From positions 1-32,646 of the IMG/VR virus record IMGVR_UViG_3300033182_000964: a DNA stretch of 32,646 nucleotides; one strand, written 5' to 3'. Under the pieces are notes generated by a model that worked only from the letters and a program-made list of their open reading frames with translations, did no database searches and was not told the origin of the DNA. Position numbers and translations under genes: made by a program. Every line of letters starts with the position of its first letter. Position 1 is the stretch's first letter. The DNA is from a virus. Shown here in pieces: positions 1-29,327 of the stretch.

Positions 1-3000
1 ATTATTGATCCTAACGGAGATGCAACATTCGAATTGGAAATAAATTCTGATTCTACTAATGAAGGTCCTGAGACATTCACTGTAACTCTAGATGATCATC
101 CTTCCGTTTCTGTTGATGTGACCATTAATGATACTTCAACAGCGACTCCAACTTACACTCTATCATCAAACTTAGATTCTGTTGAAGAAGGTTCAGTAGT
201 AACTTTAACTCTAAAAACGACACTTGTGGATGAAGGAACATCAGTTCCCTTCACAATCCACGGATCAAATATAACATTAGAAGATTTTATTGGATTACCT
301 AGTTTAGGTGCAGGTGCATTTATTATTGATTCTAATGGAGATGCAATATTCCAATTAGAAATAAATGCAGACTCAACAACAGAAGGTCCTGAGATATTTA
401 CTGTAACTCTAGATGATCATCCTGATATTTTTGTTGATGTTCTTATTATTAGTCAGACTTGGGATCTAACAGCATCCCCTTTACAGGTAACTGGAGATGA
501 TAGTATTGAACTTTCTTTATCTACATCTAATGTTGAAGATGGGTTTTATAGTTTTAATATAACAGGGTTGAGTCAGGGTGATATCGATGAATCAAATAGT
601 TCTGTTTTTTGGAACGGAAAAAAGTATGCTGGATCTTTTGATTTAGTTAATAATGCTTCATCACCTTTAACATTGAAGTTATTAAATAATAATCTTTCTA
701 ATGTTGTGATGACTGCAGAACTCGATAATAAACAAGATTCTGTAGATGTAAATATAAATAACGTTACAATATCCCCTTTCATACCACAATATGATCTTTC
801 AATAACCCCTGAAACTTTTAGTTATGGTGACACGGTAGAAGTTGAATTATTTACTAATCTTCCAGAAAATTCCATTGTTCCTTATACAATTACAGGGGAA
901 GTAGAATTAAGTGATTTTGATCCACCTTTATCAAGTAAAACAGGGCATAATTTCACGGTTGGTCCTTATGGCATAGCAAAAAAACAATATACTTTTACTG
1001 ACGGTGGAACATCTAACCCTAATTATGTAACAATCGGAGTATTTTCACATTCTTCCACAACATTCAGTCAAAATGACCAAGGTGAGATTTCTCTCTCTTC
1101 TAGTGAAACTTCTAGTGAAACTAGTAAAACTTTTGGAGTGATTCTAGATAATGTGACTCCTCTGGTCTATGATTATGCCATTTTAAAAATAAATGAAAAT
1201 CCTATTGCAGATACAGTAAAAATTCATTCTGGAATAGGAGGTACTGGAATCAAGGATGTAACACACGAAGGGTATGGATATAAATGGTCTGATATTACCT
1301 TGCGTCAATCTGGTCAATATTTTTGGAGAATAGGTCTTCCGCTTCATTATTTAAATCGTCGTGACGATGGAAGATTCACTTCTGATCCTTACGGATTACT
1401 ATCACCAGACAAGTTTGTTGATGTAAAAATTAACGGACAATCTGTTGATTTCAGCAAACTTTCTGGACATTTTGAAATTTCATCCCCTCAGGAAAATTTT
1501 GAGTTTGAGATTTATATCAGAAATGACCAATCAGACGGATACTATATAGATGAGACTGATGGCCAAGAATTCTCCCACTCCCATAAGGAATTGAGATTAA
1601 CAATAACTTATGTTCCTGATGGAAGTTACGATTTTGATGATATCAAAATTTTTCCTCAACCTAGGAATAAAATAAATAGTTACTCGCATTATGAGGGTCA
1701 TCGATCTGGCTACACTTGGAATTGGAATTATAATCCTTATGGGAATTTTGTGTCAGGAATTCAGAGGGGTAGTGGATACTATTATAACTACGCAGAAAAG
1801 AGAAATCGAATGGTTACTATGCCAGCATTGTCTCCAGAAGGAATTTTGACAAATGAAGTTTGGCAATCAGATTACAGATGGATTCAGTTCTGGTTATCTT
1901 CCAATGGCTCTCCACAGTACCACGAAGGGTTATACAATCCGTTGAATGTTCATACGATGCCGTACGGATTTCCTTATCCGACTAACTATTTTGATTTATT
2001 GAACGATCAATCGGATCGGGTGATAAGAGTGACTAACCCCGAGTACAATGGTGGATTTAATCCCACATACACGTTCATGTTGGAATACAATAGATTGAGT
2101 GAGATTGCTTTGAGAGGGGGAGATCCTAATGCAGAAAATTTAGAATTAGAATCAGGGAATCTGGAAGATGAAATATATTTCGAAATAACACAGTCGACTC
2201 TAGTTGATAATGATCATTATAGTTTTATAGACTTGAATAGTATTGAATATATTAAGACATGGAATAACTATTGGTTATTCGGTTCCGGAAGCGAATATAA
2301 AACCGACCTCAGTGAGTATAAATCGAACGACCCTCATTATTTTCCAATCCAATTAGATGCGAACGGTAATATCACAGGTTTCTTTGCAAAAAATCTATGG
2401 CGAAAACCGGACCCATCCTACCGCTGGTATAACGGTATAGGTAACGGATATGCAAAAAGTTATGTTCAAATAAAATTTAAAGATGAATATGTTCCTCTAT
2501 TATATGGAAAACAATTTAGATTTAGACTAAAACATCCTCATCCTCAAGCACAACTAGATTCTGAGGGTGCACCCCAAAAAACTCTGAATCATCCAGATTG
2601 GTACTGGAGAGATGTGGTAAATGCTACAGATGACAGAACTTTGCATCTCTCTGGCGGCCGATCTAATGTGAGCGGTTTTCATCAACATGATTTTATTTTC
2701 GATCATTTTTATGGCAGTGCTGGGTTCGTCACAGAAGCAAATGTTGATTGGGACTTGTTCCTTACTCCAACACACACTGATTTGGAAGAAGGTGATGGTT
2801 TTTATTTCACCGAAATAATGCTGACCGCTGAAGACGATTATCCAGTACTTCTTGGAAAGTATAAATTTCAAGTATTTGGAGAAGGTATAACTCCTGATGA
2901 TTTTCTCGGTTGGTCGACAATAGAGGATGAATATAATTATACCCGTTTTGATCACACAATGGAAGGGGTCATTACTGTAACGGCAAATAGTATTCCTTCG

Positions 3001-3501
3001 ATAATTATCGCAACCAGAGCAGACTTCAGAACAGAAAGTACTGAGCAGTTTTTTGTAAAATTAGTTGATTTCCCAAATGTTTCCACTGTGCAAACTATTA
3101 ATATAAATATTGATGATACGTCACAGTCTGGTCCTCTCACATTAACTGCACAATTTCCATCACCACCTATTGATGAAAATGGTCATACAAAAATACTTTT
3201 AAATTATGACTCCAAAAATCTTACTCAATATGATAGATTTGCTTTTAGAATAACTGGAGAAGGTATAACTCCTGATGATTTTGAATATTGGATGACGGAT
3301 GGAGGAATTGGAGAACAGTCATTTGGACCTAGTCTTGAAGGATTCCTCGAAGTTAATAGTTTTGGATACGGTTTAGTTGAAATTAAAATGCGTGAAGATT
3401 CAAAAACAGAACAAACAGAGTTATTTACTGTAGAATTGATCGATTATCCAGAAGTCACTGTCCAAGTGACTGTCAATGATACTTCTCAAGGTACTCCATA
3501 A
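1..3501 (+). CDS. Large repeat-containing structural/adhesin protein (5' end outside window)
   Basis: The frame is open from base 1, so the gene starts upstream and only the last 1166 codons are here. The protein is built from immunoglobulin-like beta units resembling Calx-beta repeats. Each unit ends in a pattern like EGPExFTVTLDDHP, then a VDVTINDTS-type strand. Clear units lie at about 1-135, 150-456, 2740-3125 and 3140-3490; the phrase GEGITPDDF occurs in the last two. The middle (about 1150-2700) is Trp/Tyr/Gly rich and non-repetitive. There is no catalytic motif. Such modular proteins in marine T4-like phages are usually virion surface fibres or decoration proteins, so a role in host attachment is an inference. 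It sits upstream of neck gene 13. The function call is moderate; that it is coding is near certain. Confidence 0.75.
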   Translation: MIDPNGDATFELEINSDSTNEGPETFTVTLDDHPSVSVDVTINDTSTATPTYTLSSNLDSVEEGSVVTLTLKTTLVDEGTSVPFTIHGSNITLEDFIGLPSLGAGAFIIDSNGDAIFQLEINADSTTEGPEIFTVTLDDHPDIFVDVLIISQTWDLTASPLQVTGDDSIELSLSTSNVEDGFYSFNITGLSQGDIDESNSSVFWNGKKYAGSFDLVNNASSPLTLKLLNNNLSNVVMTAELDNKQDSVDVNINNVTISPFIPQYDLSITPETFSYGDTVEVELFTNLPENSIVPYTITGEVELSDFDPPLSSKTGHNFTVGPYGIAKKQYTFTDGGTSNPNYVTIGVFSHSSTTFSQNDQGEISLSSSETSSETSKTFGVILDNVTPLVYDYAILKINENPIADTVKIHSGIGGTGIKDVTHEGYGYKWSDITLRQSGQYFWRIGLPLHYLNRRDDGRFTSDPYGLLSPDKFVDVKINGQSVDFSKLSGHFEISSPQENFEFEIYIRNDQSDGYYIDETDGQEFSHSHKELRLTITYVPDGSYDFDDIKIFPQPRNKINSYSHYEGHRSGYTWNWNYNPYGNFVSGIQRGSGYYYNYAEKRNRMVTMPALSPEGILTNEVWQSDYRWIQFWLSSNGSPQYHEGLYNPLNVHTMPYGFPYPTNYFDLLNDQSDRVIRVTNPEYNGGFNPTYTFMLEYNRLSEIALRGGDPNAENLELESGNLEDEIYFEITQSTLVDNDHYSFIDLNSIEYIKTWNNYWLFGSGSEYKTDLSEYKSNDPHYFPIQLDANGNITGFFAKNLWRKPDPSYRWYNGIGNGYAKSYVQIKFKDEYVPLLYGKQFRFRLKHPHPQAQLDSEGAPQKTLNHPDWYWRDVVNATDDRTLHLSGGRSNVSGFHQHDFIFDHFYGSAGFVTEANVDWDLFLTPTHTDLEEGDGFYFTEIMLTAEDDYPVLLGKYKFQVFGEGITPDDFLGWSTIEDEYNYTRFDHTMEGVITVTANSIPSIIIATRADFRTESTEQFFVKLVDFPNVSTVQTININIDDTSQSGPLTLTAQFPSPPIDENGHTKILLNYDSKNLTQYDRFAFRITGEGITPDDFEYWMTDGGIGEQSFGPSLEGFLEVNSFGYGLVEIKMREDSKTEQTELFTVELIDYPEVTVQVTVNDTSQGTP
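61..102 (+). repeat. Nucleotide repeat within adhesin gene, copy 1
   Basis: This 42-base stretch encodes the EGPETFTVTLDDHP segment. It is nearly identical at DNA level to 382-423, with only a few differences in the middle. Such DNA-level identity, beyond the protein pattern, points to a recent duplication or gene conversion of the repeat unit. Confidence 0.8.
382..423 (+). repeat. Nucleotide repeat within adhesin gene, copy 2
   Basis: This is the second copy of the 61-102 segment, encoding EGPEIFTVTLDDHP in the next beta unit. Confidence 0.8.
2878..2904 (+). repeat. 27-bp exact repeat in adhesin gene, copy 1
   Basis: This stretch is identical to 3256-3282 and encodes GEGITPDDF in the penultimate beta unit. 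Confidence 0.85.
3256..3282 (+). repeat. 27-bp exact repeat in adhesin gene, copy 2
   Basis: This is the second copy of 2878-2904, in the last beta unit. Confidence 0.85.
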
Positions 3502-19185: not shown

Positions 19186-21672
19186 ATGCGTTTCTATACT
19201 TCCGTTAATTCGGTCAATGATAAAATTTTAGTTAAAGGTTTCGTTAATGGTGAAAGGTTCATTGATAAAGTTCCTTATCAACCTTCTATGTTTATGAAAT
19301 CTAATGCGGGTGATAAAACACCTTATAAGGATATCTATGGTAATCCTCTGAAAAAGATAGTGTTCCAGAGTCTCCAAGAAGCAAAAGATAAGTGTTTCCA
19401 AAAAAGCACAAGGGAAGACTACTATGGTATGGCAAACTTCGAATACTCTTACATTGCCGATGAGTGGCCTGATGAGATAGAGTTTGACCCTAAACTAGTA
19501 AAGAAACTCTATCTCGATATTGAGGTTTCATCTGAGAACGGTTTCCCCAAACCAGAAGAAGCTTCCGAACCTGTTACGGCAATAACTCTTTCTAATGGAG
19601 ATATGTATTTTGTTTTTGGGTTGAAAGAATATAAACCACATAAAGAAAAGATTTATTATAAAAGGTTCAAATCTGAGCATGAACTTTTAGAAGGTTTTAT
19701 CAAGTTCTGGTCTGGTTTTGAGGTAGATGTTATCACTGGCTGGAACACTAAGTTCTTTGATATTCCTTACCTAGTCAATCGTATCAAGGTTCTTTTAGGT
19801 GATAAAGAATCTAAAAAACTATCCCCGTTCGGTATAGTGAGAGAAAGGATGGTTCAAAAATATCAAATTGCTGGGCCATCTGGGGGAACACAACAGACTT
19901 ACAATATCTTGGGAGTTTCTGATTTAGACTATCTTGAAATGTATAAAAAGTTCACTTTCACTAATCAAGAAAGTTACAGACTTGATCATATTGCTTTCAT
20001 TGAACTTGGTGAAAAGAAATTAGATTATTCAGAATATGAAGGGCTTTCTGACTTGTATGAGAAAGATTATCAAAAGTTTATTGAATATAACGTAAAAGAC
20101 GTTGAGTTGATTGTGCGACTTGAAGAGAAACTTGGTTTCATTGAGATGGTTCAAACGATGGCATATGATGCTAAGGTGAATTATGATGATACATTCTTTC
20201 AAGTTCGTATGTGGGATGTTATTATTTTCAATGCTCTGAAGAAGTATAAGATTGTGATCCCTCCAAAGATTAAACAACCCAGTCAACCATTTGAAGGTGC
20301 TTATGTGAAAGAACCTAAATCTGGATACTATGAGTGGGTGACTTCTTTTGACTTGAACTCTCTTTATCCTCATATTATTATGCAGTGGAACTCATCTCCA
20401 GAAACACTCAAAAGAAAAAATGACGATGTAACTGTCAATGATTTACTCAATCAAGTCTATGAACCAGAAATAAGTGAGAATGAGTCTATGATGGCGAATG
20501 GTTCTGTTTATGATAAGACGAGAACAGGCATTCTTCCTGCTTTAATGTCAAAGATGTATGAAGATAGAAAGAAATACAAAAAGCAGATGATAAAACTGCA
20601 AAAGGAGTATGAGAAAACAAAAGACCATAACACCAAAATGCTTGCTGACAAGTATTACAATCTTCAGTTAGTCAAAAAGATTCAGTTGAACTCTGCTTAT
20701 GGTGCTATTGGCAATCGTTTTTTCCGTTTCTTTGATGTTCGTATCGCAGAAGGCATCACAACTTCTGGTCAGTTGGTCATTCGTTGGGCAGAGAAAAAGA
20801 TGAACGAGTTTCTGCGAAAAAGGTTTGGTAATGATGAAAAAGATTTCGTGATTGCTTCTGATACAGATTCTTTATATCTTGATTTGTCCGATTATGTTAG
20901 TGAGATGGAAACAAAAGATAAGTCCGAAATAGCAGACAAATTGAATCTAATTTCTCAAAATGAGATTCAACCTTATATGGAACAGTTCTATGATGAATTG
21001 AAAAACTATCTCAATTGCCCAAAACAAAAAATGGTGATGGAAAGAGAGGTTATCGCAGACCAAGGTATATGGATTGGTAAGAAGCACTATGTTCTCAATG
21101 TTCTTGATTCTGAAGGGGTTAGATATGAAAAACCTAAACTCAAGATGATGGGAATATCTGCTGTCAAGAGTTCTACTCCTGCTATCTGTCGTGATAACAT
21201 TAAGAAATCTATTGACATTCTGATGAATGGTAATCAGGAAGAGTTGTTTGATTTTTTGGATACTGCCAAAGACAGTTTTATGAAGGCTCCTGCTGAAGAT
21301 ATTATGTTTCCTAGGGGTGTCAATAATATCCAAAAATATACAGGTCAGGATACTCTCTATACGAAGGGGACACCTATCCACGTGAAGGGTGCATTACTCT
21401 ACAATAGGTTCCTAAAAGAAAAGAACCTTGAAAAGAAGTATGAAAAAATTGAAGAGGGTGAAAAAATCAAGTTCTGTTATCTGAAACAACCGAATCCTGT
21501 TTTCGATACAGTTTTTGCCATCAAAGATATTCTTCCAAAGGAGTTCGAGCTTCAAGAATTTATCGACTATGAAAAACAATGGGAGAAAGCTTTCCTCGAA
21601 TCTGTTGAAGATATTGTTGATGCTAGAGGTTGGAAGACAAAAAAATCTTCAAGTTTATTTGACTTTTTCTAA
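19186..21672 (+). CDS. 43: gp43 DNA polymerase (family B)
   Basis: This 828-aa protein (T4 gp43 is 898 aa) carries the 3'-5' exonuclease motifs DIE (111-113), GWNTKFFDIP and YNVKD. The polymerase motifs are DLNSLYP (389-395, motif A), KKIQLNSAYG (497-506, motif B) and SDTDS (558-562, motif C), with KKHY later. The C-terminus is KKSSSLFDFF (819-828), matching the clamp-binding tail of T4/RB69 polymerase (KKASLFDMFDF). It replicates the phage genome with gp45/44/62, gp41 and UvsX. The codons of its last residues also contain the -35 box of the next promoter and lie inside a 78-bp repeat. Confidence 0.98.
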   Translation: MRFYTSVNSVNDKILVKGFVNGERFIDKVPYQPSMFMKSNAGDKTPYKDIYGNPLKKIVFQSLQEAKDKCFQKSTREDYYGMANFEYSYIADEWPDEIEFDPKLVKKLYLDIEVSSENGFPKPEEASEPVTAITLSNGDMYFVFGLKEYKPHKEKIYYKRFKSEHELLEGFIKFWSGFEVDVITGWNTKFFDIPYLVNRIKVLLGDKESKKLSPFGIVRERMVQKYQIAGPSGGTQQTYNILGVSDLDYLEMYKKFTFTNQESYRLDHIAFIELGEKKLDYSEYEGLSDLYEKDYQKFIEYNVKDVELIVRLEEKLGFIEMVQTMAYDAKVNYDDTFFQVRMWDVIIFNALKKYKIVIPPKIKQPSQPFEGAYVKEPKSGYYEWVTSFDLNSLYPHIIMQWNSSPETLKRKNDDVTVNDLLNQVYEPEISENESMMANGSVYDKTRTGILPALMSKMYEDRKKYKKQMIKLQKEYEKTKDHNTKMLADKYYNLQLVKKIQLNSAYGAIGNRFFRFFDVRIAEGITTSGQLVIRWAEKKMNEFLRKRFGNDEKDFVIASDTDSLYLDLSDYVSEMETKDKSEIADKLNLISQNEIQPYMEQFYDELKNYLNCPKQKMVMEREVIADQGIWIGKKHYVLNVLDSEGVRYEKPKLKMMGISAVKSSTPAICRDNIKKSIDILMNGNQEELFDFLDTAKDSFMKAPAEDIMFPRGVNNIQKYTGQDTLYTKGTPIHVKGALLYNRFLKEKNLEKKYEKIEEGEKIKFCYLKQPNPVFDTVFAIKDILPKEFELQEFIDYEKQWEKAFLESVEDIVDARGWKTKKSSSLFDFF

Positions 21673-21717
21673 AAGATATGTTACTATAATACTATAGGAG
21701 TTAAAAATATGGATTTT
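21640..21717 (+). repeat. 78-bp direct repeat, copy 1 (end of 43 + promoter + start codon)
   Basis: It is identical to 22140-22217 except for one base (A at 21657, G at 22157). It holds the last codons of gene 43, a promoter, the ribosome site GGAG and the first codons ATGGATTTT of the next gene. The two copies are exactly 500 bp apart. Confidence 0.97.
21659..21687 (+). promoter_or_regulatory. Sigma70-like promoter of inserted gene
   Basis: TTGACT, 17 bp, TACTAT with TGT before the -10. The -35 overlaps codons for the gp43 C-terminal LFDFF. Confidence 0.65.
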
Positions 21718-22140
21718 AGTTATATTGTAGTACATGAAACTCTGTTAAACAAAGAAGCAATTATTGAACACTACTCAGAGAAAGACGGTGTAGAAGTCAA
21801 ATATGTTTGTACTACAGATTTAAAAGAAAGTGACTGTCCTGTAGATGTGTTCTACAGAGAAACTCCACATCCAGAGTTTGGTAACAGATATTTTGGGTTG
21901 TACTGGGATCAAGTTCGTGGACATTTAATGATTACCAATGCTGATGTAGTTGAAGAACTTGAGTTTGGCATGGTAGAATGCGATGGCAAATATTATTACA
22001 GTCAAAGTCGTCACGATTACAAAAAACTAGACAACGGCAAGATGATTGATGGAGGTCGAGCATATATTAAAACCAACCGAGGATGTGATGCTGTTATGCG
22101 AATCATCGATGGCAAGTTTATTGCTAAGGATGGCAGATGA
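21709..22140 (+). CDS. Inserted 143-aa conserved phage protein, unknown function
   Basis: This 143-aa protein begins MDFSYIVVHETLLN, where the MDF comes from the repeat shared with UvsX. Conspicuous later stretches are FYRETPHPEFGNRYFGLYW, ITNADVVEELEFGMVE, YSQSRHDY and DGGRAYIKTNRGCD. These aromatic, Gly-rich patterns look like a compact beta-rich protein of a type I have a vague memory of from cyanophages, but I cannot name a function. It stands between gp43 and UvsX, whose neighbourhood is direct in relatives, and is bounded by two 78-bp direct repeats. Promoter and ribosome site are copies of those of uvsX. It is clearly a real gene by its codon pattern. Confidence 0.8.
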   Translation: MDFSYIVVHETLLNKEAIIEHYSEKDGVEVKYVCTTDLKESDCPVDVFYRETPHPEFGNRYFGLYWDQVRGHLMITNADVVEELEFGMVECDGKYYYSQSRHDYKKLDNGKMIDGGRAYIKTNRGCDAVMRIIDGKFIAKDGR

Positions 22141-22172
22141 AAAAATCTTCAAGTTTGTTTGACTTTTTCTAA
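22137..22172 (+). CDS. Possible 11-aa peptide equal to the gp43 clamp-binding tail
   Basis: The second repeat copy leaves an ORF reading M-KKSSSLFDFF-stop, the exact C-terminal ten residues of gp43. Its ATG overlaps the stop of the inserted gene as ATGA, and AAGGA (22126-22130) lies 6 nt upstream, an effective-looking ribosome site. The single base difference from copy 1 is synonymous (Leu TTA/TTG). It may be only a recombination scar, or a translated peptide that competes for gp45. Confidence 0.35.
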   Translation: MKKSSSLFDFF

Positions 22173-22217
22173 AAGATATGTTACTATAATACTATAGGAG
22201 TTAAAAATATGGATTTT
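22140..22217 (+). repeat. 78-bp direct repeat, copy 2
   Basis: This is the second copy of 21640-21717 (77 of 78 bases identical). It supplies the promoter, ribosome site and first codons of uvsX. Confidence 0.97.
22159..22187 (+). promoter_or_regulatory. Sigma70-like promoter for uvsX
   Basis: This duplicated copy of the promoter at 21659-21687 (TTGACT, 17 bp, TACTAT, extended -10) lies 21 bp before the uvsX ATG. Confidence 0.65.
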
Positions 22218-23225
22218 GAAAGTATTATTTCTGCTGCTGGTAATGAGTTTGCTCAGACTGCCAGTGAGATGGAAGAAACACAATCATACATTGATACTGG
22301 AAGTTACACCTTGAATGCCATTTTATCTGGTTCTATTTACAAAGGACTTCCAGGAAATAAAGTTACTGCTTATGCAGGTGAACAGGCAACAGGGAAGACC
22401 TTTTTTGTTTTTGAGGCTGTGAAGAACTTTCTCCTTTCTAAACCCGAAGGAAGAGTTCTATTTTTTGAGACTGAGAATGCCTTGGAAAAAGGAATGTTTG
22501 ACTCTCGTGGAATTGACTCGTCCAGGATAACTATCTTCCCTGTTGCCACTATTGAAGAATTCAAGTCACAAGCAGTTAGGATTTTAGATGCCTATCTTGC
22601 TATAAAAGAATCTGAAAGACCTGATTTGATGATGTGTCTCGATTCACTAGGGATGTTGTCTACGTCCAAAGAGGTGAATGACACAACAGAAGGATCGGAT
22701 AAAGCGGACTTTACGAGACCTAAACTGATCCGTTCTGCTTTCCGAGTTCTCACTCTCAAACTCGGAAGAGCTAATGTCCCTCTTCTTATTACCAACCACA
22801 CTTATACGAGTGTTGGTAGTTTTATCCCTACTCAAACATCTGCTGGAGGTGGCGGTCTCAAATATGCTGCCTCCAGCATTGCTCTTTTAAGTAAGAAGCA
22901 AGTGAAGGAAGGGACAGAGAAGGTCGGAAACATAGTGAAAATAAAAATGGAGAAGTCGAGATTTACCAAAGAGGGTTCATCTATAGAAACTAAAATAGAC
23001 TTTGAGAAGGGTCTTGATAGATATCACGGAATGATTGAACTTGGATTAGAAGCAGGAGTGTTTCAAAAGAGTGGTACAAGGATTTTAGTCGGAGAATCCA
23101 AACTCTACCCAAAAGCAATCTACGATGACCCAGAAAAGTATTTCACAAAAGAAGTGCTTGACAAAATAGATGATTATGTGATAAAAAGATATAGTTACGG
23201 AAAAAATAGTACAACGGAGGAATAA
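22209..23225 (+). CDS. uvsX: UvsX recombinase (RecA-like)
   Basis: This 338-aa protein (T4 UvsX is 391 aa) has Walker A GEQATGKT (57-64), Walker B LMMCLDSLG (D145), the DNA-binding loop region with SAGGGGLKYAAS, and a C-terminal region matching the T4 family. It forms filaments on single-stranded DNA with UvsY and carries out strand exchange for recombination-dependent replication and repair. The 3' end overlaps the gene 41 ATG by one base (TAATG). Start at 22209 is set by GGAG in the repeat. Confidence 0.96.
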   Translation: MDFESIISAAGNEFAQTASEMEETQSYIDTGSYTLNAILSGSIYKGLPGNKVTAYAGEQATGKTFFVFEAVKNFLLSKPEGRVLFFETENALEKGMFDSRGIDSSRITIFPVATIEEFKSQAVRILDAYLAIKESERPDLMMCLDSLGMLSTSKEVNDTTEGSDKADFTRPKLIRSAFRVLTLKLGRANVPLLITNHTYTSVGSFIPTQTSAGGGGLKYAASSIALLSKKQVKEGTEKVGNIVKIKMEKSRFTKEGSSIETKIDFEKGLDRYHGMIELGLEAGVFQKSGTRILVGESKLYPKAIYDDPEKYFTKEVLDKIDDYVIKRYSYGKNSTTEE

Positions 23226-25536: not shown

Positions 25537-25565
25537 TTGACTTTTCTTTTCAATTATATTATAAT
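25537..25565 (+). promoter_or_regulatory. Sigma70-like promoter of the helicase-nuclease gene
   Basis: TTGACT, 17 bp, TATAAT, 58 bp from -35 start to ATG, the same distance as at 29265-29323. Confidence 0.85.
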
Positions 25566-25599
25566 ATTAATATAAGGTAAGAAAAGGTAGGATTATGAA
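25560..25599 (+). repeat. Leader repeat A (left flank of cassette)
   Basis: This 40-bp stretch from the -10 box to the start codon matches 29288-29327 in 35 of 40 positions, including TATAATATTAATATA and GGTAAGAAAAGG. Confidence 0.85.
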
Positions 25600-27805
25600 C
25601 TCCAAAAAAGCAAAAAATAGACTTAGAAAATTAAAACAGTATGCCAAAAAAATATTTAATGAAGAACAACCCAAGGAAAGAAAGATGGAAAGAAAGATTT
25701 ATATTCTTGAAATAGATCCTGATCAGAAAAAATCTATTAAAGTTGGTCAAACTGATGGATGTGTTGAAAAACGCAACGCTGAAACAATGACCAACGCTAG
25801 TTTACGCCGTAGAGAAGGTACTAGTGCTTGGTGGGAATCGGCATATAAATACGATGGTACAAGATTTACTGATACTGACTTCATAAAATACTTACTTGAA
25901 AAGGGTTACGTATTCGAACGTAATAATAATGATAATAGATCTGAGTGGGTTGAGTTTGATCCAGAAGGTAAACGAGTTACATCCAATCAAATTAAAGATG
26001 AATTAAAGAAATTTATGGGTAGACCAGTATACAACCCTTTAGTACTTAGACCTGCACAAAGATATGTTATTGATGAAATCCAAAAACTGATAGATCGTAA
26101 TTGCAAGTACATTAATGCAGGATTGTGTGTGCGATTAGGTAAAACCGTTATTTCATTAGAAACAGCTGCAAGAAATAATTTTATGCCTGTATATATTGGT
26201 AAAAACTTAACTTCACAAACTAGTTCTAAAATTGATAACGACACATTTGGAATTGTACCAAATTTACTTACAGTCAGTATACATGGTGGAGAAAAAGTAA
26301 AAAAGATTATTGATCAAATTGAAGCAAAAAATGAAAAGAATTTGCCGATTCTTTTCGTTATTGACGAAGTTGATGACGCTTCACATACTAAAAATTCAAT
26401 ATCCACTATTAAACCAATAGTAGAACATTTCAAATCAAATGGAAATCTTGGTTGCGTTATTACTATGAGTGGCACAAGAATTCATAGAGGTGCAAAAGTT
26501 CTTAATCAAATTTCTGAAGGTGGATATAAGGAAGTTTTACTATATTATCATGAAATGCAGATATTACAACCCGAAGTGACATGTAACCGCAATTTCACTC
26601 GTATCTGTTTTTATGATAAATCGAATCCAGATCGTTTTTTAAATATTTCTGATTCATTAAAATGTGACACAGGTCGTAAAGATTTAGTTGAATTCTTTAA
26701 AAGTATATTGTCACGTGACAATAATTTCAAAATTGAATCTAATGATGAGTTCCCTCATTGGTTTGTTAAAATTTGTGCAAACAAACTAGATGGTGTGGGT
26801 ATATTAATAAAATTACTTAATAAAAACTGTTCTGAAATTGATGGTCAAAAATATGTTTATTTTGCGATTAATGGCAAAACCACAAAAAATAAAACTGCTC
26901 AAAAATATTGTCAAAACCTTATTCAAAAAAACAAGGATAAAATTTGCGTTTTTATTTCACAAGGTATGGCTACAACTAGTTTCAGTGTAAAGGGTATTGG
27001 TAATAGTCTTGTGTTGACAGATAATAAGTTAACTGCCGATGATATACAGGCATTACATCGAAGTGCTACTTGGGCTAAGGGGAAAGATGAATGTAATATG
27101 GTTGTTGTAACCACAAATGGTGATGAAGAATACAAATATGATGATGTATTTGAAAATGAGATTAAATCGGATAATCCAGAAGATCAGAAAATAAAGTATA
27201 AAAGTGTTTTAAATAATAACAGTATAACTCACATTATTACCAATGGTACTACCAAAGGCAGTAGTAAGCATTCAGTAAAAATTGAAAGTAAAAATGTTGC
27301 AGATTATATTGATAAAAAACAAAAAGCAATGAAATCTGTTAATAGTCTAGTGATTGCAATATATGGTGAAGATGTTGATCCTGAGTTACGTGAATGGATT
27401 GTTACTAATGCTAAAGGTTTAATCTCAAAAAGTAAAAAATTTAAAAGTGGAAAACCAGACTCAATTGAATCAGATTCAAGTCACAAAGATAATAAAGAGA
27501 CCTCAAAAGAAAAAAGTGGTAAAACTTCTAAAAAAGAAATAGAAATCACTCGACAGTTCGTGAAAGACTCTATAAATTTACCTGCAATTGCTAAAGAACA
27601 GGGAATTGGTATTCGAGATTTGTCTAACCTTAATGCGAATTTGGGTGTGGATTTAGAATTATTTTTTGATGTGTATGATTCTGTAGAAGGGTTTAAATGT
27701 GGTATTGATTTAATCTATAGGGATTGTGATGACAGGAAGTATTTAAGAGAGTGTATTGAGAGAACGATGTTTAAAAATGATTTTCTTGACACATTAATGC
27801 CTTGA
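25595..27805 (+). CDS. GIY-YIG-type (T5orf172-like) nuclease fused to SF2 helicase; restriction-like
   Basis: This 736-aa protein has an N-terminal domain (about 33-122) with IYIL (35-38), KVGQT (49-53), Arg60 and EW (117-118), the layout of T5orf172/GIY-YIG nucleases. An SF2 core follows: LRPAQRYVIDEIQ, motif I VRLGKT (179-184), motif II DEVD (257-260), motif III TMSGT (290-294), and QALHRSATWAKGK (from 485) as motif VI. A Lys/Ser-rich linker (about 620-655) leads to a C-terminal domain (about 656-736). It is followed by two methyltransferase genes, so a DNA restriction or translocase role is inferred. An alternative start exists at Met31. Confidence 0.75.
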   Translation: MNSKKAKNRLRKLKQYAKKIFNEEQPKERKMERKIYILEIDPDQKKSIKVGQTDGCVEKRNAETMTNASLRRREGTSAWWESAYKYDGTRFTDTDFIKYLLEKGYVFERNNNDNRSEWVEFDPEGKRVTSNQIKDELKKFMGRPVYNPLVLRPAQRYVIDEIQKLIDRNCKYINAGLCVRLGKTVISLETAARNNFMPVYIGKNLTSQTSSKIDNDTFGIVPNLLTVSIHGGEKVKKIIDQIEAKNEKNLPILFVIDEVDDASHTKNSISTIKPIVEHFKSNGNLGCVITMSGTRIHRGAKVLNQISEGGYKEVLLYYHEMQILQPEVTCNRNFTRICFYDKSNPDRFLNISDSLKCDTGRKDLVEFFKSILSRDNNFKIESNDEFPHWFVKICANKLDGVGILIKLLNKNCSEIDGQKYVYFAINGKTTKNKTAQKYCQNLIQKNKDKICVFISQGMATTSFSVKGIGNSLVLTDNKLTADDIQALHRSATWAKGKDECNMVVVTTNGDEEYKYDDVFENEIKSDNPEDQKIKYKSVLNNNSITHIITNGTTKGSSKHSVKIESKNVADYIDKKQKAMKSVNSLVIAIYGEDVDPELREWIVTNAKGLISKSKKFKSGKPDSIESDSSHKDNKETSKEKSGKTSKKEIEITRQFVKDSINLPAIAKEQGIGIRDLSNLNANLGVDLELFFDVYDSVEGFKCGIDLIYRDCDDRKYLRECIERTMFKNDFLDTLMP

Positions 27806-27830
27806 CATTGTATTTTATTTATGGTATTAT
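27802..27830 (+). promoter_or_regulatory. Sigma70-like promoter of methyltransferase genes
   Basis: TTGACA, 17 bp, TATTAT with TGG before the -10. Its -35 overlaps the stop of the helicase gene, so the methyltransferase pair can be expressed separately from it, as is usual for modification genes. Confidence 0.8.
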
Positions 27831-27869
27831 ATGTATATGAGATTAAAAAAGGGGACAGGAGTAACTAAG

Positions 27870-28841
27870 ATGTCAAAACTAATTATTTGTAGTAATCAAA
27901 ATATTCTAAGTTATTTTGAACGTGTTGCTAAAGGTGACACAATTGTTCTAGAAGATGATGTATCTAAGAAAAGATGGCTCCTTTTTCTTGAAAAATGTGA
28001 AATTTACGAGAGTGATGTTAATTTTATAACACAAGAGGGGTTTCTGGATATGAAAGATGTTAAATTTGATGCTATTATAGGTAATCCACCTTACAGTTTA
28101 GCTGGAAATAAAACTGGTAAAAGAGGAAGAGCTGTAACTTTATATGATAAATTTTATAAGAAATCTGTAGAACTTAGCCCTATTGTTTATATGATAGTTC
28201 CAGATACTAGTAGAAATACACAATCCTTTAATAATTTTATTCAAAATATTGATAATTGTAATAAAGTTATCCCAATTGACGACAATGTATTTGATATTAA
28301 TCAAAAAGTTTGGTGTTTAGTTAAAGATAAAAATTGTAAATCCCCTAAAGCAATTAAAATTGAAGATGTTAAATGGATTCCAAACGAATTTCCTAAACAG
28401 AGAGTTCAATGGTCTAAAGGTAAATTAAATGTGACGGGAAATAGGAACTTGTTAAAAAATATTGAAGGGGAATATACCGTCTACCACAAGATAAATGGTA
28501 AAGGTTGTATCAAATATTCAAGTGAATTCATAGATCCTAAGAAATGCTTTCCATCCGATGGATATGCTGTAATTATGCCACAACAGATTCAAAAAAATGG
28601 GTGGACTAGAACCGATATTATTAAATGTGATGGGAAACAATCTGCAATGAATGGTGTGAATTTAGCTTTTGTTAAAACTAAAGAAGAGGCTGAATATTTG
28701 GTTAAATATATGAAGTCTGATAAATTTATAAATCAAGCTTTGTCATATTGTGGTGGACAAAATAATGTGAAACTTGGCACATTGAAATTAATTAACATGG
28801 ATGATTATGAATTTGGAAAAGATAAGAAAACATCTCTTTGA
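27870..28841 (+). CDS. Adenine methyltransferase catalytic/target-recognition half (NPPY)
   Basis: This 323-aa protein has the catalytic motif IV of N6-adenine DNA methyltransferases, IIGNPPY (69-75), followed by the usual helix with YDKFYKKSVEL and YMIVPDTS, then a region like the target recognition domain of Eco57I-type enzymes (YAVIMPQQIQKNGW, TKEEAEYLVKYMKSD). It lacks the AdoMet-binding motif I upstream of NPPY. That part is found instead in the next gene. The start is 27870, since GGAG (27859-27862) precedes it; the ATG at 27831 overlaps the promoter. The protein is probably active only with its partner. Confidence 0.8.
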   Translation: MSKLIICSNQNILSYFERVAKGDTIVLEDDVSKKRWLLFLEKCEIYESDVNFITQEGFLDMKDVKFDAIIGNPPYSLAGNKTGKRGRAVTLYDKFYKKSVELSPIVYMIVPDTSRNTQSFNNFIQNIDNCNKVIPIDDNVFDINQKVWCLVKDKNCKSPKAIKIEDVKWIPNEFPKQRVQWSKGKLNVTGNRNLLKNIEGEYTVYHKINGKGCIKYSSEFIDPKKCFPSDGYAVIMPQQIQKNGWTRTDIIKCDGKQSAMNGVNLAFVKTKEEAEYLVKYMKSDKFINQALSYCGGQNNVKLGTLKLINMDDYEFGKDKKTSL

Positions 28842-29259
28842 AAGAGAGTATATGAGTGGTATTGATAGAGAAGAACTTCGTGTAAAAACTACAGCAGAAA
28901 TATTCACTCCAACAATCCTTGTGGAGGATATAATAAATGGAATGGATCCAGAATTATTTGAAGATGAGAGTAAAACCTTTTTAGACCCTTCTGTTGGTGA
29001 TGGTCAAATTTTAGTTAGTGTATTCTATAGGAAATTACAGAATGGTATTGAATTCGAACAAGCTCTTTCCACTTTATATGGTGTTGATTTAATGCAAGAT
29101 AATGTGGATTTATGTCGTGAAAGGTTATTATGTGGTCGTGAAGACCTTAGACATATAGTTGAAAATAATATCGTTTGTGCAGACGCTCTTCGATATCATT
29201 ACCGTTTTGATGGCACTCCTGCATACGATCAAAGTCCAGATTTACTTTCTTTTTTTTAA
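28801..29259 (+). CDS. Adenine methyltransferase AdoMet-binding half
   Basis: This 152-aa protein (if the first ATG is used; ATGs at 28807 and 28852 are also possible) carries motif X-like TAEIFTPTILVED (FTP at 35-37), motif I FLDPSVGDGQ (DPSVGDG 62-68), motif II YGVDL (D96) and motif III VCADAL (D128), and stops where an intact enzyme would continue to NPPY. NPPY is in the preceding gene, so the enzyme is split between motifs III and IV with the halves in reverse order. The genes overlap by 41 bp in different frames. The C-terminus SPDLLSFF has the LxxFF clamp-binding pattern. Confidence 0.8.
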   Translation: MIMNLEKIRKHLFEREYMSGIDREELRVKTTAEIFTPTILVEDIINGMDPELFEDESKTFLDPSVGDGQILVSVFYRKLQNGIEFEQALSTLYGVDLMQDNVDLCRERLLCGREDLRHIVENNIVCADALRYHYRFDGTPAYDQSPDLLSFF

Positions 29260-29264
29260 AACTA

Positions 29265-29293
29265 TTGACAACCCACCCATTTTTTAGTATAAT
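29265..29293 (+). promoter_or_regulatory. Sigma70-like promoter downstream of cassette
   Basis: TTGACA, 17 bp, TATAAT, a full consensus, directly after the methyltransferase stop. It drives the gene at 29323 and perhaps the following operon. Confidence 0.88.
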
Positions 29294-29327
29294 ATTAATA
29301 TAGGGTAAGAAAAGGAGATATTATGAA
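29288..29327 (+). repeat. Leader repeat B (right flank of cassette)
   Basis: This is the second copy of the leader at 25560-25599, with 35 of 40 positions identical and the same distance between -35 and ATG. Confidence 0.85.

Follow-up and report, generated by a model that had tools for sequence, protein, structure and literature searches.

The gp43-uvsX junction and gene X

The window, by which we mean the whole analysed stretch of 32,646 nucleotides of the viral record IMGVR_UViG_3300033182_000964, carries a gene of 143 aa, here called X (21709..22140), between two intact replication genes; all genes and repeat features of this junction lie on the + strand. Upstream is gene 43, which encodes a family B DNA polymerase (19186..21672; phrog_262, E 7.9e-294; PF00136/PF03104), and downstream is the uvsX recombinase gene (22209..23225; phrog_97, E 1.7e-70; PF00154), followed by a gene for a DnaB-like helicase. 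The window gp43 aligns with RB69 gp43 as far as the last residues, and its C-terminal KKSSSLFDFF, encoded together with the stop codon at 21640..21672, is a probable sliding-clamp-binding tail by its alignment with KKASLFDMF of RB69, which we take to be clamp-binding.

X is enclosed by two copies of a direct repeat spaced 500 nt apart (21627-21717 and 22127-22217; 91 nt, 95%). Their 78-nt core (21640-21717 and 22140-22217) has a single mismatch, A21657 against G22157 at the third position of a Leu codon, and from 21658/22158 the copies share an exact stretch of 60 nt. The next-longest exact repeat anywhere in the window has 28 nt, and across 100 versions of the window simulated with an order-2 Markov model the longest exact repeat had a mean of 16 nt and a maximum of 20. 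The repeat and ORF analysis bears out the original prediction of duplicated 78-bp copies with one mismatch and a 500-bp period around a 143-aa gene. The core comprises the gp43 codons for KKSSSLFDFF and stop, a predicted promoter (TTGACT-17-TACTAT), AGGAG and ATGGATTTT, and it takes in the first three uvsX codons; a promoter scan places the -35 hexamer TTGACT at 21659-21664, inside the gp43 tail codons. Copy 1 (21627..21728) provides the RBS (21696-21700) and the ATG (21709) of X, and its homology to uvsX reaches about 21728 through codons 4-7 of another uvsX allele; read in this way, the duplicated stretch is about 102 nt, longer than the 78 bp first proposed. Copy 2 (22127..22217) holds a GWQM-type gp43 tail, the predicted promoter, an RBS (22196-22200) and the uvsX start. 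Gene 43 is intact, as had been proposed, and X and uvsX each have a predicted promoter, a ribosome site and a start codon. No evident meaning attaches to the period of 500 itself. Directly after X, an ATG overlapping its TGA opens a putative frame of 11 codons, MKKSSSLFDFF (22137..22172), which possibly encodes a free clamp-binding peptide. Internal direct repeats also occur in the 1155-aa ORF at the window start (1-440 and 2866-3282; 119 nt, 84%; 39 nt, 87%).

Residues 28-135 of X match the PHROG profile phrog_12504 (E 1.7e-17), whose proteins are found in Caulobacter phiCbK-like phages (about 42% identity to X) and in metagenomic phages. In a 16-row alignment with invariant EKDGVEVK and TPHP stretches, this family is strongly conserved. 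The homologues begin M[NK]I.H in 23 of 23 cases (15 of them aligned) and X begins MDFSYIVVHE, with MDFSNIV being the UvsX start in 9 of the 11 contigs of the window's clade that show the UvsX head. As its homologues begin M[NK]I.H and X begins MDFS like UvsX, X is fused to a uvsX start. A chance value of 3e-5 for this uvsX-like head was set aside as proof, since the X homologues share part of the stretch (ATTGT). At the other end, the C-terminus of X itself is cut: X ends FIAKDGR, its nearest homologue (L001) continues past that point, the DNA after X is the gp43 tail of the clade contig L025 from AGGATGGCAGATG onward, and the right flank AGGATGGCAGATGAAAAAATC is identical to that tail. These comparisons place the left join of X inside uvsX codons 5-7 and the right join inside gp43 codon -14. 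Short similar sequences occur at both joins (AACATTGT/AATATTGT on the left, AGGA on the right), and the joins suggest illegitimate recombination.

A structure model of X (pLDDT 86.7) is of mixed helix/strand type, with no PDB match at E <= 0.001 and with only two phage hypotheticals as BFVD matches at E <= 0.001, and no nuclease, transposase or restriction-modification family was matched in Pfam, PHROG or PADLOC. Genes of the X family lie tens of kb from gp43 in all four records with a gp43 match (10 records searched, 23 loci), and a 13-nt direct repeat was found around none of the 23 homologues in the stretch tested (less than 50 nt upstream for L002 and L018). Unlike X at gp43, the phrog_12504 gene of phiCbK has unrelated genes around it, most of them hypothetical. 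No more can be said of X than that it is an accessory, mobile gene of large phages, here under a predicted replication-gene promoter.

Empty and occupied sites in relatives

Clade contigs were gathered by scans of IMG/VR with uvsX, gp43 and DNA patterns, in which records very close to the window may be missing, and records of the same contig were counted once (L026=L037=L051; L029=L041; L030=L042=L049; L031=L039=L053=L108; L032=L038=L057; L044=L052; L045=L048; L047=L054; L050=L121). Twelve distinct clade contigs show the gp43 end, with gp43 85-93% identical. Excluded from the twelve are L027 (=L107), which begins 24 nt before uvsX, and L055 and L056, which end inside gp43; L036, L040, L043 and L046 are chance matches outside gp43. 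The gp43-uvsX junction is empty in 10 of the 12, with uvsX 36-37 nt past gp43, and X was not found in any of the 17 clade and near-clade records, most of them fragments. The remaining two contigs, L031 and L050, carry a PF01555 DNA methyltransferase between gp43 and uvsX, with only the left side of the insert seen in L050, which ends 53 nt past gp43. Because ten of the 12 clade sites are empty and none holds X, X is an insertion, and its repeats are probably a target duplication. This supports the insertion with duplicated flanks that had been predicted, and the counter-case named there, X at the junction without the repeats, was not found among clade relatives. Removal of one 500-nt period in silico gives a normal gp43-uvsX junction, which is the product that the precise deletion proposed between the copies would leave.

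X has been seen at gp43-uvsX in one contig only, so the primary event has been seen once. A single metagenome contig, with no second contig bearing X at the junction, could reflect an assembly artefact made at the 78-bp repeat, however, we regard this as very improbable: the X ORF carries a gp43-tail remnant on its right and a uvsX start on its left, which repeat collapse would not make, and an unrelated gene with a duplication of its own stands at the same site in L031.

This second occupant (L031:5129-5962) lies between the copies of a perfect 20-bp repeat, TTATTTGACTTTTTCTAAAA, containing the same gp43 tail codons and hexamer. The methyltransferase ends KLFDFF, residues derived from the gp43 tail and absent from its homologues L109 (78% identical, ending SVEDYLEA) and L110 (62% identical). 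The junction could be imagined as a site where genes are captured again and again and armed on arrival, each taking either the promoter, RBS and start of uvsX, as for X, or a clamp-binding tail, as for the L031 methyltransferase, which would be tethered to the clamp; the insertions would be reversible and exchangeable between co-infecting phages. We find this general reading doubtful. A literature search on clamp-binding methyltransferases in phages gave no match, which is not proof of absence in print. The L031 repeat (20 bp) is much shorter than that of X (102 bp), and different mechanisms may lie behind the two.

Across the wider T4-like group the order 43-uvsX-41 is common: gp43 directly precedes uvsX in S-SSM4 and Caulobacter phage Cr30, and in S-BM1, S-CAM7 and Sf-CH5 gp43 is immediately followed by one or two small ORFs. 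A gp43-tail repeat was present in one of 15 gp43-uvsX gaps tested, that of L031, the other 14 being from more distant loci, and none was found at the three cyanophage junctions L112-L114, which hold small extra ORFs. In L069 the 6.3-kb gp43-uvsX gap is surrounded by an imperfect promoter-like repeat of 36 nt with 5 mismatches, which may be just a pair of similar promoters. At L033:4206-5106 (gp43 44%), 900 nt separate gp43 from uvsX with an HNH-type-looking gene at the end, and this gap has no gp43-tail repeat. Between uvsX and the helicase gene (uvsX-41), L024:4009-5906 holds a two-gene cassette consisting of a 386-aa unknown protein and a PF01555 methyltransferase, for which no flanking repeat beyond 12 nt was found; since this cassette lacks a long flanking repeat, insertion in general can do without duplication.

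Within the window itself, a second promoter-RBS-ATGAA repeat lies at 25554-25599 and 29282-29327 (46 nt, 85%; core 27/28). The genes between its copies give Eco57I-type and N6_Mtase matches and are missing from L026, L027, L028, L030 and L032. By its arrangement this is possibly another insertion with a duplicated promoter; an exact empty site for the 25554-29327 segment was not found. At 27831-29259 a methyltransferase is apparently split into two overlapping ORFs, the Eco57I part followed by the N6_Mtase part, the latter ORF ending SPDLLSFF.

An element that brings its own recombinase, of the transposon or homing-endonuclease kind, would also place a gene between gp43 and uvsX. Passages of PMC2988022 describe many free-standing homing endonucleases in the gene junctions of T4-like phages, and the HNH-like gene read from the sequence of the more distant L033 occupies this very junction. 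X, however, matches no nuclease or transposase family in Pfam, PHROG or PADLOC, and it has no significant PDB match and no terminal inverted repeats. With no such domain in X and no inverted repeats at the locus, homing endonuclease and transposon were both rejected, and we give an element of this kind a very slight chance.

Flank haplotypes and the course of the insertion

The two copies differ in their outer parts. The gp43 tail is of the GWKT type in copy 1 and of the GWQM type in copy 2, and the uvsX head is of the MDFS type before X and MDFE in the true uvsX. The window gp43 is L025-like until about 100 nt from its end and then 98% like L028, L030 and L032, and the first 200 nt of the window uvsX are 98-99% like L024. 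At the 21657 site, GWKT tails have G in five of five contigs and other tails have A in six of seven, with A in copy 1 and G in copy 2. Both copies look like recombinants of opposite sense, formed within 17 nt. The claim that the event was recent or actively homogenised is only partly supported: the central 60 nt are the same in both copies and include a promoter C absent from relatives, but the outer halves are different haplotypes. Because of these different haplotypes, the locus has recombined since or during insertion, exchanging with other phages within the repeats or next to them, and a plain duplication of one molecule is not the whole history, which comprises more than one event. The private promoter C favours one original molecule or later conversion. 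The opposite switches are compatible with a single crossover of a one-period circle, with a double crossover, or with one point mutation combined with flank exchange.

Two co-infecting phages may have been joined through X, the left part running from the GWKT tail to uvsX codon 7 and the right part from the GWQM tail onward, in which case the duplication would be the overlap of the parents and no target would have been duplicated in a single genome. Copy 1 does join a GWKT tail to an MDFS head, as do 4 of the 12 contigs (L028, L030, L032 and L045), and copy 2 differs from it in both tail (GWQM) and head (MDFE). However, copy 1 has A at the 21657 site where GWKT tails carry G in five of five contigs, copy 2 has G where GWQM/GWKM tails carry A in two of two, and the identical central 60 nt with its private C means that conversion or mutations must be added. 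Overall, we see this joining as possible, if somewhat unlikely.

Alternatively, a one-period circle made up of X and a single repeat copy, excised from another X-carrying phage, could have entered a single-copy site by a single, Campbell-type crossover. This predicts a haplotype switch in the same 17 nt in opposite sense, from resident to incoming in copy 1 and from incoming to resident in copy 2, as is seen. Nonetheless, the prediction rests on one variable site (21657/22157) that one point mutation could mimic, the promoter variant is common to both copies, and a double crossover between linear genomes would give nearly the same picture. We therefore judge the circle to be unlikely.

Insertion of X by illegitimate recombination with long target duplication, the repeats being used later for exchange, is the course that we consider likely. 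X would have come from another phage lineage and entered between gp43 and uvsX at short shared sequences, with the 5' join pairing about AAYATTGT of X with uvsX codons 5-7 and the 3' join pairing AGGA with gp43 codon -14. On the target, the left join is positioned downstream of the right one, and for this reason about 102 nt would have been copied to both sides. The need for a duplication probably stems from the -35 box of the uvsX promoter, which lies within the last gp43 codons: an insert that spares both the polymerase tail and the uvsX promoter must have this stretch repeated. The L031 repeat agrees with such a need, since its 20 bp span the same codons and hexamer. The duplication would thus preserve the whole gp43 clamp-binding tail while uvsX keeps its promoter, and X would be expressed from the first copy, beginning at the uvsX start codon. 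The repeats could then act as homology for exchange with other clade phages, which would account for the mixed flank haplotypes, and should permit the precise loss of X.

Here gene gain is caught in a marine lytic T4-like phage in a case where homologues are known from elsewhere, relatives show the site both empty and independently occupied by another gene, and both joins can be read. The case shows how a compact operon for replication takes in a gene and keeps both overlapping functions of one short stretch, the polymerase tail and the promoter, and the gain of clamp binding by captured genes becomes a testable question.

Comparison with known systems

Free-standing homing endonucleases of T4, as described in passages of PMC2988022, resemble X in being single genes in replication-gene junctions, sometimes with start/stop overlap with the neighbour, whereas X has no nuclease domain (GIY-YIG, HNH or other; no Pfam match). 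By term counts, 'duplication' and 'direct repeat' are absent from the main text of that paper. PeSL, described in an account within PMC4503421 as mobile regulatory cassettes of T4-type phages (Arbiol 2010; Comeau 2014), are likewise promoter-bearing segments between T4-like genes and possible homology for gene shuffling, but the repeat at X duplicates a particular gp43-uvsX junction and is no dispersed cassette. A PeSL cassette was rejected, as 21400-22500 contains 0 terminator-like stem-loop sites.

Insertion with long target duplication has been described in bacteria in passages of PMC1643837, PMC3031569, PMC4978471 and PMC3154945, the first two of which credit it to Nobusato et al. (2000). 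The cargo in these accounts is often a restriction-modification gene, an association and no strict requirement. A literature search on repeats and illegitimate recombination gave no match, which does not prove absence in print. The likeness to the bacterial cases, as those passages present them, includes a gene present or absent between close relatives, a flanking direct repeat of which the empty allele has one copy, repeats of varying length, the lack of a transposase and a DNA methyltransferase as cargo (L031). In contrast to them, the insertion is in a lytic T4-like phage and not in a chromosome, the cargo X is not restriction-modification, and the repeated unit includes a protein tail together with a promoter and start codon used by the cargo. 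The comparison points to long target duplication in phages as well, beyond the restriction-modification genes of bacteria from which it is known.
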